Virus record (IMG/VR): IMGVR_UViG_3300033141_003077
Coordinates: 1-28,939 of that record
DNA: 28,939 nucleotides
Origin: a virus
Direction: 5' to 3' (one strand)
A model generated the notes under the pieces. It was given only the letters and a program-made list of their open reading frames with translations, searched no databases and was not told the DNA's origin. Shown here in pieces: positions 9,235-26,967 of the stretch. The position numbers and the translations under genes were made by a program. Within the stretch, counting starts at the first letter, position 1; every line of letters begins with the position of its first letter.

Positions 9235-9263
9235 AACTAATCCCCAACCAACTACTATAAGTA

Positions 9264-9287
9264 TGCTTTACAATATAATAATTTCAA
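9264..9287 (-). promoter_or_regulatory. weak candidate promoter before the DUF1360-like gene
   Basis: On the minus strand TTGAAA (9287-9282) is followed after 16 bases by CATACT, a four-of-six match to the -10 consensus. It starts at the base of the post-capsid hairpin, so it could restart transcription after a terminator. The match is weak in AT-rich DNA. Confidence 0.25.
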
Positions 9288-9317
9288 AGTTATGCCCACA
9301 ATACGTGGGCATAACTT
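9287..9317 (-). terminator. perfect 13-bp hairpin after the major capsid gene
   Basis: AAGTTATGCCCAC (9287-9299) and GTGGGCATAACTT (9305-9317) pair perfectly around the five-base loop AATAC. It begins ten bases after the capsid stop. On the minus strand the stem is followed by TGAAATTATTATATTG, which is AT-rich but lacks a clean T-tract. It could be a leaky terminator or a 3'-end stabilising structure that keeps the capsid message abundant. Confidence 0.65.
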
Positions 9318-9327
9318 ATTCAAATTA

Positions 9328-10395: not shown

Positions 10396-10419
10396 ATTTA
10401 ACACCCTCCTCAATAGTTT

Positions 10420-10450
10420 AGGATGCGCATATATAAGCGCATTAATCCTA
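10420..10450 (-). other. small inverted repeat upstream of the capsid gene
   Basis: ATGCGC and GCGCAT pair around an eight-base AT loop, with outer AGGAT/ATCCT arms that can extend the stem across a bulge. It lies between the preceding structural gene and the capsid ribosome binding site. It could protect or process the capsid message. No T-tract follows. Confidence 0.3.
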
Positions 10451-10465
10451 TAAATTTATATCTAA

Positions 10466-15870: not shown

Positions 15871-18800
15871 TTAGTTAATTCTTTTTAATATCGCTGCGTT
15901 ATGTGGGTAAGAAGAATTACTAAGTGAGGCTGTGTCAAATTTGGCTCCTGGAGTGTGAGGACGTACAAATCCCCGATCATGCAACACTTTAGTCTGTATT
16001 CCAGCCTGAGATAAAACTTCCTTTACTCCCCAAGAAGCTAACACTAACGCTGAGTACAAATCCTTATTTTGATCTCTTTTAGGAGTATCAAAATGTGCTA
16101 CGCCTCTAGTGGTTTGTGTAACCACAATGTTCACTAGTTGACTTTTTAATACTTTTACTTCTTCATAAAGTTTCTCTAGCTTTGCACTCGATGTTAATGG
16201 CAATTCAGGAAATAATAAATCTTTATTTTCTAATAAAGCTAACAAATTAAAATTAGCATCAGAAATCCACTGTACAGTAGGATTTAGCAAATGTAATATT
16301 CTTCTACCACTCATATGTTGATTATCTTTGTCTTTAACATCTAATATAGGCTCAAAACCATCATACCCCTCTTGTAATAAATCTTTCCACGCTTTGCCAC
16401 CACCCATAGAATCCATGTACATGCCAACTATGTTAAATGAGGTAAGAAGCCTTTGTATATGTTTAACATTATTCTGTATAGTCTTTTCATTTAGACGTTC
16501 TACATAAACTATTTTATGCGGAGGGCCTGCTTGAAGTACTACTATTCCAGCAGCAGCTCTACCGGCTTGGTTAGGATCTACTCCAAGCACATACTCGTTA
16601 TCCGATACACCAGATGTGTGAATAGTAAACCCTGTTTTTAAACTACACTCTTCTACTAACGAGGCTTTAAAAAACCCGCTACTATCAGAAACCATAGCTG
16701 CCTCATACTCCATCATAAATTCAATTGTTGACATTGTGCGCTTAGCTTTTTTAATATTTTCCTCATCTAAAAACCCTTCTGGTAATAACTTATAAGGTAT
16801 TTGATGAACTGCATACTTATCTTCCTCTCCTTCTTCAATCGCTCTCCAATATGCTTTCATCCTTTCCCACATATGGTTAAATTTAAAATACCCTGACGAA
16901 GTCATTATCATTTTGTTGGCCATATTATCAATAAAATCTTCTTCAGTAGCTAAACCTAATGCAACTAATTCTCGTTGGCGCTCCAACTCTCTAACTCTCT
17001 GCATAGGTTCTAATGATACCGCAGCCATAGGAGTAATAACTAAATCAATTATTTCGGACGGCATTTGAGCTAACTCATCTACCTCGATCAAATAAAACCT
17101 AGACCCGCGAATCTTTGCCCCATCCACGCCTACAGGCAGCGCTTCTATAAAACTACCATTACTACGATCAGTACCTTTAAATTGTAAATAACATGTGTCT
17201 GCACCCCTTACGGGTTTTTTCTCAGCGGCTTCACGTACAATTGAAGATCGTCTATATAATTTTTCTATCTCAGAAAAAATCATTTTTGAATTATGATTAA
17301 TAAATCCATTACACCAATATGCATTTTCTATATCAACTTCTATATCTACCGTATCAGCATAAAAATAGCTTTTATCTAACGGCCTGACAAAAAATAAATT
17401 ATTCTCAATTATTAACTTTAAAATATAATATTCATAAGATTTAAAGCCATGTGTATTGGAAATTCTTAGCAAGTTAATTATCTGATGTCTAAAAAAACCT
17501 TCTTTTTCACAGGGCTTAATTTTACTAATCAATTCAAGCTTATCTATACCTACATGTTTCGCTAATTTACTTATCAAATCATTTACAATATCAGAAGAAT
17601 TCTGTATAACAACATCATCATCCAAATTTATTGAAGTGTTTACATAATTTAATAATTTAACTTGTTTTTTATTTATATTAAATCCTATCTCATTAACAAA
17701 TTTATTGATATTGTCCTGTCCTGTAATACGTAATTTATATAAACCATATGTAACTAACTGCGCATCACCTATTTTAGTCACATCATACTCAAACTCAACA
17801 TCAAGTATAGACACTATGCCAAAATTAAGTAATATAGCTTGTAATGTTTTACACAAAAATTTATTAGCAGACGTATAATCAACTGTTAGTACTTCACCTG
17901 AGTCGCTGGTTACAACACAACAATCCCCATCAACATCATACAATCCCCGTAAAAACCACTTCCACTTATCCTTATTACACTTATACAAAATAGAAGGTAT
18001 ATATGATACACCAACCGATTTAAATAAATTACATAAATCTTTATTATACAACTCAGCAATAAAACAACCGCTATAATCTCGTCTAATAGAAGGTTTTACA
18101 CCAAACTGCTTATATATAACATCACTATATACATTAATTATATCTTCGTCTGTAGTACGTAAATAAACCAAATGTTCATTCTCTATACTACCATGCATAC
18201 AAATCAATCCTAAACAATAAGCTAACTCATTAGTTATAAACCCATTCTCAACCGAATCATCTAAAAATTCTTCCATACCTGATCTAATAACTAAATAATC
18301 ATTACTATCTATAGACTCCAATTTCTTATAGTCAAAGCCCAGGCCTGTCCATATTAAAACCCGATGGTTCTCATCACCTTCTATGCTAAACCCTTTTTCG
18401 CATTCCAATCGAATACACTTTCGATTATAATTTATCCATTTATTCTTTACTTCATTAAACCTCTCTAATGAAAATATACTATCACCAATATTAATATTAT
18501 CATACAACTCCTTAGTTGAACACATAATTCCCTTAGAAGTAATAAACACTGAAGGCTTATGAGAAAGCACTAGACATTGCCTAAATGAAGGACCTATTAA
18601 ACCTATCCTATACCCAGGATATAATAGTGCATGTAATAACGCATTGACTCCTAATAAAAAGGTATTATGATTTATAAATCCATTTGCAAAATAATTAGGC
18701 TCAGTATGCTCAACATCCATGTCCATTTCAAAATCATAACAATCCCCTTCCCACCGCTCAACACTCTTTACTTCATCAAAAAAATAATGTGTATAAAAAA

Positions 18801-19944
18801 GACTGGCTAACTTATCTAGACTAACTTCAACTTCAGACAAACTAAAGCCCCTATCCTCAATAAATTCACATTGTTTTAAAAAATTGTATAGTTGTATATA
18901 GGTCAGCCCTTTCTTAGTGTTAAAAAACATATTAAAAGAAAGTTTTGTAGAATCAAAATATGTAGAATTATAATACTCAATAATATCAGAACACAACTTC
19001 AACCCATAAGGTATAATATCATTACCAACATTTAAGTCACTATCAGTAACTCTATCTCTAGTATCTAATCTACTACCTATTAAATAATTAAAAAGCAAAT
19101 AATTATAAGAAACTACATCTAAAATTAAAACATCCTCACTTCTTCTTAATCTGGATACAATACCTAAATTAAGAAGCATTAATTGTATTTCTTTTAAAAA
19201 CTTATAAGATGTAGATAAACAAGTTAAACGGCCACTATTAAATGTACTATTAGCATCAAAATACCCTTGTAAAAACGCTATTTGCACCTCTATAGTCCCC
19301 TGCCTAATTATTATAGGCACGCTATCCGATGCACTGCTATCTCCTATAAGTAACCCAATTAAATATGCATCATCAAGTGAAAATTTATAGGTACCAAAAA
19401 CTCTCTGTCCTCTCTGAATACAAATTTTATCACCAACCTGTAATTCTGATAACGGCTTATACTCAAACTCGCAATTAGTATTCAATGTTAAAAGTGCATG
19501 CTGTTTAGAACCTTTATGTTCAAACCCATAATCAGTAACTACTTTACATCCTTCGATCTTCTTTTCCAAAGCAACTCTTTTTGTACATCTAAACCCATCA
19601 GAAGTATAAACTATTTCATCACATTCTATTACCTCATCATCCCCAGTAGCTAAATAGGTTGGAATAGATGGCAGTATTTCATATAAATAAACCAACCCTT
19701 TATTCTTAATATAAGTCAAGCTATCTATCGAACTACTTTTACCAAGACCACGACCAGCCACTGTTATAACAAAATTTTTAAACCACATATCCCTTAATAT
19801 AATACGCTGAACAGGCGCCAAATCTACCTTAAGTAAATCAAGAGCAGCCATTACTGGATCATGTCTATAAAACTGTATAAGTTCTGCGCCTCGATCTAAC
19901 AACAGCTCAAAATCATCATATACTTCAACTAATTTTGTAGTCAT
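15871..19944 (-). CDS. terL: terminase large subunit interrupted by two inteins
   Basis: The ATPase/nuclease that pumps DNA into proheads. The 1357-residue precursor splits into exteins 1-71, 428-456 and 886-1357, which would join to a normal 572-residue terminase. Walker A is AGRGLGKSS (63-71), completed only after intein 1 is removed. Walker B is YLIEVDE (951-957), with D956 and E957. A TSSG coupling motif lies near 1015. The RuvC-like nuclease has D1123 (GVDPNQ), D1178 (MYMDS) and a third acidic residue, probably D1295. Start and upstream stop are two bases apart and the binding site is weak, so coupling to the previous gene is likely. Both inteins keep His-Asn ends. Splicing is inferred. 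Confidence 0.95.
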   Translation of the reverse strand: MTTKLVEVYDDFELLLDRGAELIQFYRHDPVMAALDLLKVDLAPVQRIILRDMWFKNFVITVAGRGLGKSSSIDSLTYIKNKGLVYLYEILPSIPTYLATGDDEVIECDEIVYTSDGFRCTKRVALEKKIEGCKVVTDYGFEHKGSKQHALLTLNTNCEFEYKPLSELQVGDKICIQRGQRVFGTYKFSLDDAYLIGLLIGDSSASDSVPIIIRQGTIEVQIAFLQGYFDANSTFNSGRLTCLSTSYKFLKEIQLMLLNLGIVSRLRRSEDVLILDVVSYNYLLFNYLIGSRLDTRDRVTDSDLNVGNDIIPYGLKLCSDIIEYYNSTYFDSTKLSFNMFFNTKKGLTYIQLYNFLKQCEFIEDRGFSLSEVEVSLDKLASLFYTHYFFDEVKSVERWEGDCYDFEMDMDVEHTEPNYFANGFINHNTFLLGVNALLHALLYPGYRIGLIGPSFRQCLVLSHKPSVFITSKGIMCSTKELYDNINIGDSIFSLERFNEVKNKWINYNRKCIRLECEKGFSIEGDENHRVLIWTGLGFDYKKLESIDSNDYLVIRSGMEEFLDDSVENGFITNELAYCLGLICMHGSIENEHLVYLRTTDEDIINVYSDVIYKQFGVKPSIRRDYSGCFIAELYNKDLCNLFKSVGVSYIPSILYKCNKDKWKWFLRGLYDVDGDCCVVTSDSGEVLTVDYTSANKFLCKTLQAILLNFGIVSILDVEFEYDVTKIGDAQLVTYGLYKLRITGQDNINKFVNEIGFNINKKQVKLLNYVNTSINLDDDVVIQNSSDIVNDLISKLAKHVGIDKLELISKIKPCEKEGFFRHQIINLLRISNTHGFKSYEYYILKLIIENNLFFVRPLDKSYFYADTVDIEVDIENAYWCNGFINHNSKMIFSEIEKLYRRSSIVREAAEKKPVRGADTCYLQFKGTDRSNGSFIEALPVGVDGAKIRGSRFYLIEVDELAQMPSEIIDLVITPMAAVSLEPMQRVRELERQRELVALGLATEEDFIDNMANKMIMTSSGYFKFNHMWERMKAYWRAIEEGEEDKYAVHQIPYKLLPEGFLDEENIKKAKRTMSTIEFMMEYEAAMVSDSSGFFKASLVEECSLKTGFTIHTSGVSDNEYVLGVDPNQAGRAAAGIVVLQAGPPHKIVYVERLNEKTIQNNVKHIQRLLTSFNIVGMYMDSMGGGKAWKDLLQEGYDGFEPILDVKDKDNQHMSGRRILHLLNPTVQWISDANFNLLALLENKDLLFPELPLTSSAKLEKLYEEVKVLKSQLVNIVVTQTTRGVAHFDTPKRDQNKDLYSALVLASWGVKEVLSQAGIQTKVLHDRGFVRPHTPGAKFDTASLSNSSYPHNAAILKRIN
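17290..18576 (-). mobile_element. intein 2 in terminase, LAGLIDADG type, motif 1 degenerate
   Basis: Residues 457-885 (429 residues). It begins at Cys457 (FRQ|CLVLSHKPS) and ends YWCNGFINHN|SKMIF, with +1 Ser886. Removal restores GPSFRQSKMIF, an ordinary terminase sequence. The endonuclease part has motif 1 CLGLICMHG (577-585), with His584 where the catalytic Asp should be, and an intact motif 2 LRGLYDVDG (665-673). The block B position has EGDENH rather than the usual TxxH. Splicing residues look intact and DNA cleavage is probably impaired. Confidence 0.9.
18664..19731 (-). mobile_element. intein 1 in the terminase Walker A loop, LAGLIDADG type, degenerate
   Basis: Residues 72-427 (356 residues). 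It probably begins at Ser72 (GKSS|SIDSLTYI), since Ile2 and Thr6 then fit the intein start; Ser71 is a less likely alternative. It ends NYFANGFINHN|TFLLG, with +1 Thr428. Motif 1 LIGLLIGDS (195-203) keeps Asp202, but motif 2 LQGYFDANS (225-233) has Asn232. The two motifs lie only 30 residues apart, so most of one endonuclease half seems to be missing. GSKQH at 145-149 resembles block B with Ser for Thr. Confidence 0.88.
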
Positions 19945-19946
19945 AC

Positions 19947-20450
19947 TTAAGTACCGCTATCCACATCATTTCTATTACCAATAAAATATTTAGCACGTTC
20001 TTTTTTTAAACTTTCCTCTTCTTTTAACATACTACTAGATTTTTCATATAATTCACGCTTCTTATCGTTATCAAACTGCACAGCTAAATCTACAATAGAC
20101 AATCCTCCGTATTTCTTTGGATCGATACGATCTTTTCTCCTAGCTGCCAAATTCTCTTTTAATTTTTCTGTTTGTTTTCTAAGCTTCTCAACTGCAGAAG
20201 AAACATCAACGTGCCTAGTAGGATCGTCTTTACTAGTTTTAAGTAAACGCATCTCTAAAACTTTATTCATAGCTATACCCATCAAATCATCCATATCATT
20301 AGCACTTAATTGAGTTTCATCAAAATCATTTAAATAAATATCTACAAGACCTTCGTACATTTCAAACTCATCTGGAGTAAAAATATCGTTTATCGGTAAA
20401 TACTTCTTTAACATTTCTTTAATTTTAGGAACTTTTTTAGCACGTCCCAT
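19947..20450 (-). CDS. terS: probable terminase small subunit
   Basis: A 167-residue helical, charged protein encoded directly before the large terminase, whose start lies two bases after this stop. The small subunit normally recognises packaging sites and stimulates the motor. Helical stretches occupy about residues 45-70, and a Lys/Arg/Glu-rich coiled-coil segment lies at 83-105. The N-terminus is basic (MGRAKKVPKIKEMLKKYL). GGAGAGG precedes the ATG. No classical helix-turn-helix stands out, so the call rests mainly on position, size and charge. The NUMOD3-like protein upstream is an alternative site-recognition candidate. Confidence 0.6.
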   Translation of the reverse strand: MGRAKKVPKIKEMLKKYLPINDIFTPDEFEMYEGLVDIYLNDFDETQLSANDMDDLMGIAMNKVLEMRLLKTSKDDPTRHVDVSSAVEKLRKQTEKLKENLAARRKDRIDPKKYGGLSIVDLAVQFDNDKKRELYEKSSSMLKEEESLKKERAKYFIGNRNDVDSGT

Positions 20451-20513: not shown

Positions 20514-20918
20514 TTAGGTGTCGAGTCTATGACAATACTCCTTCAATAACAATAAAAACTCTGGCGTCATTTCATGACCAAATAAATCTTCTATTTCTAA
20601 TCCAAACCCGACTTCTAACTGAGAAAGATTTACCAATTTTTTAAAAGTCATAACATCATCTATAGAATCTAAAGATTCTTTATTAAGATCAAACCATTCC
20701 ATGACCTCATAATCCACATCTGCATATTCGCTCTTAAGACTGCCAGCTAAAGAATTTTTTCTTCTAAAATATGACTTTAATGACTTAGAAATTTTATTAC
20801 GTGTCTCAATACTATGTCTTGTACCTAACCTTTTTTGACGTATCTTCTCTTTTGTTTCTTCGCTAAGACAATGCCCAAACGGCCTTCCTCGTTTACGCAC
20901 TACTCTAACTTTATCCAT
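20514..20918 (-). CDS. AT-hook and NUMOD3-like DNA-binding protein
   Basis: A 134-residue protein with two DNA-binding signatures in its first 50 residues: an AT-hook-like core RGRP at 10-13 and two NUMOD3-type repeats (GHCLSEETKEKIRQKRLG and GTRHSIETRNKISKSLKSY). NUMOD3 units usually accompany GIY-YIG or HNH homing endonucleases, but no nuclease motif is present here. The rest is acidic and helical. The ATG abuts the TAA of the NusG-like gene, with AAGGGA upstream, so the genes are probably coupled. It may help recognise phage DNA for packaging, or it may be the remnant of a homing endonuclease. Both are inference. Confidence 0.65.
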   Translation of the reverse strand: MDKVRVVRKRGRPFGHCLSEETKEKIRQKRLGTRHSIETRNKISKSLKSYFRRKNSLAGSLKSEYADVDYEVMEWFDLNKESLDSIDDVMTFKKLVNLSQLEVGFGLEIEDLFGHEMTPEFLLLLKEYCHRLDT

Positions 20919-21401
20919 TTATAGTTTAGTCCCTTCAAATAATATATCGTCTATAGTGCACTTCAAGAACCTATCTGATCCAAACAATTCTACAGCGACT
21001 ACAATCTTACTACCTTCTACACTTACTACTCTACACAACATCCCTTTAAAGGGGGTTCTTTTAAGTTTATAATGTTCTCCTACAGCTATATTATTATTTA
21101 CAACTATCTCATCATACTCCTTAGTAGCAAGGTCTTTAACACGATCAATCTCAAAATCAGTACATTTTCCCACATAATTATAAAAATAAGGACTGGCCAA
21201 CAATCTATTAGTAATCCTATCATCATCTTTATATTTAATAAAAATATAATTGGCGTATAAAGGAACTTCCTTTTTAGTAGATCCACGCCTTTTATTAACT
21301 AGTGGATAAAAAACATTCTCTATTCCATCAAAAGCTTCCAAAAAATAAATAGCCTTTTTATACCTATTTCTATTTAATGTCCATACATGCCAATCACACA
21401 T
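20919..21401 (-). CDS. phage-encoded NusG/RfaH-like transcription factor
   Basis: I start this 160-residue protein at MCDWHVWTLN (21401), one base after the upstream stop and close to GGTGGAG. Earlier TTG or ATG codons would add a short, unlikely leader. Residues 1-95 fit a NusG N-terminal (NGN) domain: an N-terminal WHVWTLNR strand, then FYPLVNKRRGSTKKEVPLYANYIFIKY. Residues 103-155 fit a KOW domain (AVGEHYKLKRTPFKG...VAVELFGSDRFLKCTIDDI). NusG-family proteins bind RNA polymerase and promote processive elongation or antitermination. Its position just before the packaging and head genes suggests a role in their expression. That role is inference. Confidence 0.85.
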   Translation of the reverse strand: MCDWHVWTLNRNRYKKAIYFLEAFDGIENVFYPLVNKRRGSTKKEVPLYANYIFIKYKDDDRITNRLLASPYFYNYVGKCTDFEIDRVKDLATKEYDEIVVNNNIAVGEHYKLKRTPFKGMLCRVVSVEGSKIVVAVELFGSDRFLKCTIDDILFEGTKL

Positions 21402-21402
21402 T

Positions 21403-21648
21403 TTACTCCACCACATCAAACTTTGTTACTTTTTTACAAACAGTGCATACAGCCATTATAGTACTTTTAGGTGCATAAATCTCATTTCCACATTCGACAC
21501 ATTTAAAAAACTCACGTCTTCTAGAACGCCTTGGTTTTGAAAATTTAAAAGGTAACTTTTTATAATCATCTGCAAACTTACTCTCTTTATGTATACGCTC
21601 TCTATATTTACCTAACCCCTCTTCAGGAATCCATCTACGATCACCCAT
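21403..21648 (-). CDS. small zinc-ribbon protein
   Basis: An 81-residue basic protein. Cys50, Cys53, Cys68 and Cys71 form a CxxC-x14-CxxC zinc ribbon in its C-terminal half. The N-terminal half is rich in Lys and Arg (FKFSKPRRSRRR at 35-46). Its start adjoins the end of the HD-domain gene, and its stop is one base before the NusG-like start, so all three are likely translated together. Zinc ribbons of this kind often bind nucleic acid or RNA polymerase. A partnership with the NusG-like protein is possible but unproven. Confidence 0.75.
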   Translation of the reverse strand: MGDRRWIPEEGLGKYRERIHKESKFADDYKKLPFKFSKPRRSRRREFFKCVECGNEIYAPKSTIMAVCTVCKKVTKFDVVE

Positions 21649-24123: not shown

Positions 24124-24147
24124 ATGCTACTCCTAATTCAAAAGTAC

Positions 24148-24175
24148 TAGCGAGGATCAATAATGATCCTCGCTA
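24148..24175 (-). terminator. perfect 12-bp hairpin after the cold-shock gene
   Basis: TAGCGAGGATCA (24148-24159) pairs perfectly with TGATCCTCGCTA (24164-24175) around an ATAA loop. It begins nine bases after the cold-shock stop. Minus-strand sequence after the stem contains only a short TTTT four bases on. A Rho-independent terminator or a 3'-end stabiliser is likely. It would close the ClpP-actin-cold-shock transcript. Confidence 0.7.
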
Positions 24176-24183
24176 TCACCTGC

Positions 24184-24421: not shown

Positions 24422-25414
24422 TTATAAAATAGCCGCCATTAAACATCCATGTGCCACTGCTGTCATAGGATCCGATGCCCTTCTAATTTCCTTTACGTCA
24501 AACGGCAACTTTTTCTTACTACTTTCTTCTTTAAATCTTTCACTAAAATTCCTAGCTAATGTTAAACCGCCAGATAACACAATAGGTAACGGTTCCCTAA
24601 ATGATGGAAGTTTAGCCCTATCTAATTCATAGATCATGTTATCAATAGCATAATTAATTAAAATATTATAATACACAGACAGCGCTTCTTGTATTTTACC
24701 ATTAGGATTCAAAAGATCCACATCCGCCTCTTCTTTTTCAATCTGAACTAATGATTGCGTTAAATCAAGAGCAGTAGCTACAGACTGATCAATCCAATCC
24801 CCGCCTTTAGCCATAGAAAATTGAACAATAGGATCTCCTTCATACACAACAGCAATATTTACCATACCAGCTCCAAAAGAACAACACACCCCTGTAAGGT
24901 TGTCATCTAACAGTTCTGAAAAAGCTATGGCAAAAGCTTCGTTTATAGATGAAGGATTAAACCCCATCTCCCTCAAATAGGCTTTCATCATTTCTTCATG
25001 ATAAAATATATCAAACTCAGCATCTATAGGAACTGCAGGAATAGAAAAAACTAATTTCTCTCCGTCAGATGCCTGTCCTATAATACTCTTAATTAATAAT
25101 CTAATCATTGAAAGCGACGCTTTTTCTTTTGGTGACAACACACCTTTACTCATTGGTCTGCTAGCTATAGCATTCCTTTCATTAGCCATCTGAATAGCAT
25201 CCTCTCCTACAATTACAAAATCATCTCCGTCTATAATAAAATTTACCTCTCTGCCTTCAAGAGACATTCTTATACTTTTTTTATTAACTTCAGATTTAGG
25301 AGTAATTCTAAAAAATGCATCACGCTGCTTTTTATAAACAGGTCGTCCTTCACTGTCCATAACAGCAGCAACTAGCATGTTAGTACCTATATCTAACCCT
25401 ACACCCTTATCCAT
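24422..25414 (-). CDS. divergent actin/ParM/MreB-like protein
   Basis: A 330-residue actin-superfamily ATPase fold. Phosphate-1 is GLDIGTN (6-12). A NEAFAIAF helix lies at 158-165. The phosphate-2 position reads CSFGAGMVN (178-186), followed by GGDWID. The adenosine motif is IVLSGGLT (278-285). In ordinary members phosphate-2 has aspartates (D.G..TD); here they are Ser179 and Asn186. Nucleotide binding may remain while hydrolysis is reduced. Actin-like phage proteins can position DNA or build filaments in the host. GGGAGGAG precedes the ATG. It follows a coiled-coil gene that may encode its partner. A chaperone-like protein is an alternative. Confidence 0.85.
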   Translation of the reverse strand: MDKGVGLDIGTNMLVAAVMDSEGRPVYKKQRDAFFRITPKSEVNKKSIRMSLEGREVNFIIDGDDFVIVGEDAIQMANERNAIASRPMSKGVLSPKEKASLSMIRLLIKSIIGQASDGEKLVFSIPAVPIDAEFDIFYHEEMMKAYLREMGFNPSSINEAFAIAFSELLDDNLTGVCCSFGAGMVNIAVVYEGDPIVQFSMAKGGDWIDQSVATALDLTQSLVQIEKEEADVDLLNPNGKIQEALSVYYNILINYAIDNMIYELDRAKLPSFREPLPIVLSGGLTLARNFSERFKEESSKKKLPFDVKEIRRASDPMTAVAHGCLMAAIL

Positions 25415-26849: not shown

Positions 26850-26905
26850 ACCGCCTCCTATAAAATAATAATACTTATAAAAATATTATTCACTGTCCTA
26901 TATAT

Positions 26906-26934
26906 ATTATAGAATATTTTCCAATATTTGTAAA
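26906..26934 (-). promoter_or_regulatory. near-consensus sigma70-type promoter before clpP
   Basis: On the minus strand TTTACA (26934-26929) and TATAAT (26911-26906) are separated by exactly 17 bases. The -10 is perfect and the -35 matches five of six. Transcription should begin near 26899, about 50 bases before the clpP start. It lies in the longest gap in the window (118 bases), which holds nothing else I can identify. Confidence 0.85.
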
Positions 26935-26967
26935 GCAAACTATATATAATATAAATATATCTTAGTG

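Follow-up and report, generated by a model that had tools for sequence, protein, structure and literature searches.

What does a gene for a NusG-like protein contribute to a phage when it sits before the packaging and head genes? The question is raised by IMG/VR record IMGVR_UViG_3300033141_003077, a linear record of 28,939 bases that was analysed over its full length (the window). All main genes of the window lie on the minus strand. Their order is ClpP, a coiled-coil gene, a volactin-like actin, cold-shock protein, deoxynucleotide kinase and HD protein, followed by a zinc ribbon, the NusG-like gene, a NUMOD3/AT-hook gene and a putative small terminase, and then by large terminase, portal, protease-like, scaffold-like, decoration-like and capsid genes and the tail genes; several of these names are assigned by position alone. 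The NusG-like ORF of 160 aa was found exactly where the preliminary description had placed it (20919-21401, minus strand), with an ATG start and the ribosome site GGTGGAG. Directly upstream lies the zinc-ribbon gene (21403-21648, minus strand; 81 aa, CxxC..CxxC), and the stop codon of the NusG-like gene is immediately followed by the start codon of the NUMOD3/AT-hook gene (20514-20918, minus strand; 134 aa), which matches PF07460 with 24.4 bits at a cut-off of 20.4 and carries an RGRP AT-hook core. The coupling to these two real, abutting neighbours that had been proposed thus holds for position. It does not extend beyond position, since both genes are kept in phages with and without the NusG gene.

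Further downstream, the putative small terminase (19947-20450, minus strand), named from its position only, has an AT-hook-like N-terminus in relatives. The large terminase (15871-19944, minus strand) contains two in-frame intein-like insertions, with the C-terminal extein at 15871-17289; judged by spacing in relatives, the insert content seems variable. The actin-like protein (24422-25414, minus strand) matches the Volactin family with an E value of 3e-71 and is conserved across the phage group.

The NGN domain (residues ~1-100) was recognized by Pfam PF02357 with 23.2 bits at a cut-off of 22.2. The protein also matched PHROG_6386, ‘transcription antiterminator’, with 4e-10 up to residue 144, and all 27 of the 27 family members do so with E values down to 5e-14. 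A profile of these 27 members found T. maritima NusG (2e-8), the best sequence match in the PDB, and E. coli RfaH (4e-6); for the KOW domain (~108-152), the PDB profile matches are to NusG CTD chains. An AlphaFold2 model based on the family alignment (pLDDT 87.6) consists of an NGN domain and a beta-barrel C-terminal domain with strands at 110-149, the relative orientation of the two domains not being fixed by the model (pTM 0.62). With Foldseek, all significant PDB matches were NusG, RfaH and Spt5 (best E 2e-9). Sequence profiles and the predicted fold thus agree on the NGN and KOW domains that had been noticed in the 160 residues.

Invariant positions include W4, Y52, F54 and G141, with Y52 and F54 kept in 27 homologues, and the residue before Gly141 is either Phe or Leu, a pattern shared with NusG CTDs. 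Y52/F54 align with Tyr54/Phe56 of RfaH, two residues of its binding surface for the beta' clamp helices; of these, Phe56 is described as typical of RfaH-like proteins, most NusGs carrying Leu instead (PMC2871177). T. maritima NusG has Phe at this position too, hence Phe is not exclusive to the RfaH type. Judged by these invariant residues, the protein would bind the beta' clamp helices of RNA polymerase. Sequence, predicted fold and contact residues together bear out the proposed NusG/RfaH-type paralogue, and we regard the protein as almost certainly a NusG-family paralogue.

To place the gene among related phages, relatives were collected with a terminase query, which gave 51 viral loci, and with an alignment query, which added more together with three MAG contigs (96 including the window); a search of viral contigs with the single NusG-like protein had found nothing. 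Gene order across these relatives is strikingly constant. Where present, the NusG gene occurs once per record and always in the order ZnR-NusG-(NUMOD3)-TerS-TerL. It was found in 33/33 loci of the window's clade with the site covered, a count that includes near-identical contigs and a few loci seen from one side, and it is absent from all 36 sister-clade loci that have both flanking genes, where the zinc ribbon adjoins NUMOD3. Among 24 syntenic-gene profiles it is the sole gene that separates the two clades cleanly (31/31 vs 0/36); nearly all others are near-universal in both, and the small genes g15.8 and g9.2 are patchy in both.

On the terminase tree, calculated with a quick IQ-TREE method, one change of NusG state suffices (support 99). 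A direct search revealed three more loci with the NusG gene between ZnR and TerS, which form a deeper lineage (L143, L144, L146). When rooted with terminases of Bacillus and Microcystis phages the tree gave a polytomy in which the order of the lineages is not settled. The present distribution goes back either to a loss in the sister clade or to a gain in its relatives, and both are possible because the third lineage also carries the gene. Values of dN/dS between 0.07 and 0.18 (six close pairs) demonstrate that natural selection maintains the gene, which holds one fixed place in a lineage of large phages coded on a single strand. As it is intact under strong constraint in all 33 sampled members, it does something.

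A second difference between the clades concerns promoters. In the NusG-carrying clade a long promoter-like motif, TATCTAGCAAA-N-AAAATATTCTATAATATA, stands upstream of the ClpP and cold-shock genes. A matrix built from 23 of these sites found 31 sites in 677 kb of NusG-carrying loci, all co-directional with the genes and none on the opposite strand, and 0 sites in 580 kb of loci without the gene; as the matrix was derived from NusG-carrying sites, the zero and not the 31 is informative. The only match in the window is a divergent variant upstream of ClpP (26903-26938, minus strand; TTTACA-17-TATAAT, 21.3 bits). In the sister clade, similar places carry CTTGACAAA...TTATATT. Across the whole of IMG/VR, the exact core pattern of the motif of the NusG-carrying clade occurs in 55 stretches, many of them in contigs of this clade; others are in contigs without terminase, which may be other parts of such genomes. 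The P-type -35 box was rejected as a NusG element, as it sits upstream of the transcript.

Promoter class and NusG gene separate along the same deep branch, as would be expected if the NusG-carrying clade infected another kind of host, gene and promoters reflecting that host and not a phage mechanism. Since the gene is under the constraint described above in every sampled member and the third lineage carries it too, we consider such a host shift very improbable.

The promoters are sparse. In the 99-kb record G030 no second site of this class occurs in the 77 kb after the ClpP promoter, a stretch coded wholly on the plus strand; in the 150-kb record G196 the first 68 kb lack such sites and seven come later. 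The phages of G030, G196 and G023 have genomes coded almost entirely on one strand. Giant ORFs occur in G030 (at 64862, 6,976 aa) and G196 (at 29140, 7,354 aa), in both within the promoter-free stretch, and in G023 (at 33007, 7,871 aa). Bacterial NusG paralogues such as LoaP, TaA and UpxY are encoded beside or in their own very long target operons (PMC7819879, PMC7593976), and by analogy the promoter-poor late operon appears to be the setting in which such factors work. Position and promoter-free stretches of tens of kb thus support an action on the long structural operon, as had been proposed. G023, however, belongs to the clade without the gene and has ~90 kb between promoter-like sites. The factor is therefore not needed for such a long operon as such, the sister clade managing without it, and operon length alone fails to explain the gene.

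The same comparison bears on the idea that the protein is a transcription-translation coupler, its KOW domain tethering the ribosome (S10) to RNAP to keep Rho out while very long messages and giant ORFs are being translated, with antitermination as a by-product. A KOW core with the invariant Gly141 of NusG CTDs and the ~7,000-aa ORFs of the operon would suit such a role, and RfaH is thought to support long polypeptides likewise (PMC7593976). Giant ORFs are, however, equally present in the clade without the gene, and we consider this explanation improbable.

Terminator-like hairpins had been put forward as support for antitermination. The stem-loop at 9287-9317 in the post-capsid intergenic stretch (9235-9327, minus strand) is a stable one, with -27 kcal/mol calculated for the whole gap. 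What comes after it is TTGAAATTATT, however, not a U-tract, and it is not listed by the terminator scan. Hairpins of the relatives keep this position in both clades, generally without a U-tract, and intrinsic-terminator-like sites after the capsid gene are not commoner in NusG-carrying loci (7/20) than in those without the gene (5/16). This support therefore falls away, and post-capsid hairpins were rejected as NusG targets. Neither the long operon nor the hairpin proves antitermination, the hairpin being present in both clades.

Searches for recruitment sites of known type gave a similar picture. The window contains four ops-like matches where 7.75 are expected, none of the 31 promoters has an ops-like site within 300 nt, and UNCG-tetraloop hairpins show no excess in NusG-carrying loci. 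The discriminative 9- and 11-mers in non-coding DNA were promoter and ribosome-site variants and RNA elements common to both clades. A window hairpin between NUMOD3 and TerS was rejected as a LoaP-type site because it is missing there in other relatives. Separately, a strong 12-bp hairpin lies between the cold-shock gene and the next gene (24124-24183, minus strand); it is missing in the relatives examined, where the corresponding gap measures 0-24 nt.

A NusG paralogue could also do without such an operon-specific site if it served host takeover or anti-silencing. By occupying the NusG site of RNAP it would exclude host NusG and uncouple Rho-dependent termination genome-wide on AT-rich phage transcripts. 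The lack of ops-like and UNCG elements in our searches agrees with this, a single RNAP site serves all NusG homologues and RfaH keeps Rho out (PMC7819879, PMC7593976), and the clade's own promoter class would fit a wider alteration of transcription. In contrast, the gene lies within the virion-gene operon and not among early genes, so that its product would come late for a general takeover. On balance this explanation seems unlikely to us.

As to the polymerase, host RNAP is the likely partner, since none of 20 fragmentary viral records had a sigma factor or RNAP beta' subunit above the cut-off. Because an identical terminase occurs in a WOR-3 bin and a Parcubacteria bin (L054, L055), the MAG binning is untrustworthy and a host assignment from MAG matches was rejected. 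In 147 genomes of the phylum of the WOR-3 MAG there were ordinary NusG-level matches only, at most one per genome.

Taken together, the protein most likely acts on the late operon, where it would serve the host polymerase as an elongation and antitermination factor, and its best reading is probably that of an RfaH/LoaP-like processivity factor. The NGN domain would dock on the beta' clamp helices of the elongating host enzyme, as in NusG and RfaH, and suppress pausing and termination, so that very few promoters could suffice for transcription of the co-oriented late operon (ClpP, volactin, terminase, portal, capsid, tail and the ~7,000-aa ORF). A further partner, either S10/ribosome or NusA/Rho-type factors, may be recruited by the KOW domain. 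Tentatively, NusG paralogue and promoter class (TCTAGCAAA...TATTCTATAATAT) might even be parts of one phage transcription programme. A phage factor would then bring host RNAP to the promoters and the paralogue would give processivity over the ~70-90 kb late operon, which the sister clade would run from sigma-70-like promoters without it; we regard this extension as possible but doubtful.

Other RNA elements were observed along the operon. A conserved bulged hairpin immediately precedes the ribosome site of the major capsid gene (10414-10465, minus strand). Its consensus, UGGAU-UAA-n-GCAC..GUGC-AUCCA-AAACUA, is also found in the gaps between decoration and capsid genes of relatives of both clades, with 99% of cells paired and two-sided changes in 29 cells vs 5.6 in shuffles. 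It has no match in Rfam and may serve the capsid gene as a translational operator. A recurrent element, UAAUwAACUAACC-N8-AUAGAGG, marks 3' ends of structural genes in relatives, where it follows terminase or portal stop codons, and occurs in some ClpP leaders; in the window it lies near 15875. Before the scaffold-like gene a G-rich leader element, AGG..AAGGAAATGG..GAGGTTGGT, is conserved (gap between g12.3 and scaffold, e.g. L004:9600-9700), and its counterpart in the sister clade is CAGGTTGGT.

Antibiotic, capsule and conjugation operons are known to have specialised NusG paralogues. In phages, scattered NusG-like proteins are already annotated (PHROG_6386, e.g. Synechococcus phages and uncultured Caudovirales); those of the phage collection searched share only 23-24% identity with the window protein, and the literature searched held no mechanism for them. 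Housekeeping NusG has the same two-domain fold, but the phage-encoded protein reaches 20.3 bits with TIGR00922 (cut-off 135.7) and has Phe instead of the usual Leu at the clamp-contact position. RfaH, which promotes long operons, aligns over residues 1-135 and shares the N-Y-x-F contact motif; its HTT motif is absent at the aligned positions, its model gives 16.5 bits (cut-off 124), and no ops element was found for the phage gene. The CTD of RfaH is an autoinhibitory alpha-hairpin, whereas that of the phage protein is predicted as a beta-barrel, though AlphaFold2 gives one state only. LoaP (NF033641) is likewise an NGN and KOW paralogue tied to very long operons and acts on intrinsic terminators. 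It differs in score (21.9 bits, cut-off 125) and in its UNCG-type leader hairpin, which was not found in the phage loci. The NCBIfam models of UpxY, NusG, RfaH and LoaP all match the protein; UpxY (NF033644), the antiterminators of Bacteroides capsule operons, scores best among the curated subfamilies and is matched by all 27 members. Similar to the phage gene with its putative target, UpxY is encoded with its target operon; it acts, however, in capsule operons and not in phage ones, the score of 40.4 bits lies below the cut-off of 100, and no upxZ gene was seen within the window. Because all four curated cut-offs were missed, the protein is not a member of NusG, RfaH, LoaP or UpxY and should be named a phage NusG-family paralogue. 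New compared to the annotated phage antiterminators are a fixed place that defines the lineage, a paired lineage that lacks the gene and the co-varying promoter class. A phage lineage that has fixed the paralogue within the operon of its virion genes, next to a sister lineage that has the same genes but lacks the paralogue, provides a natural comparison, in which one can ask what such a paralogue adds to very long transcription units.
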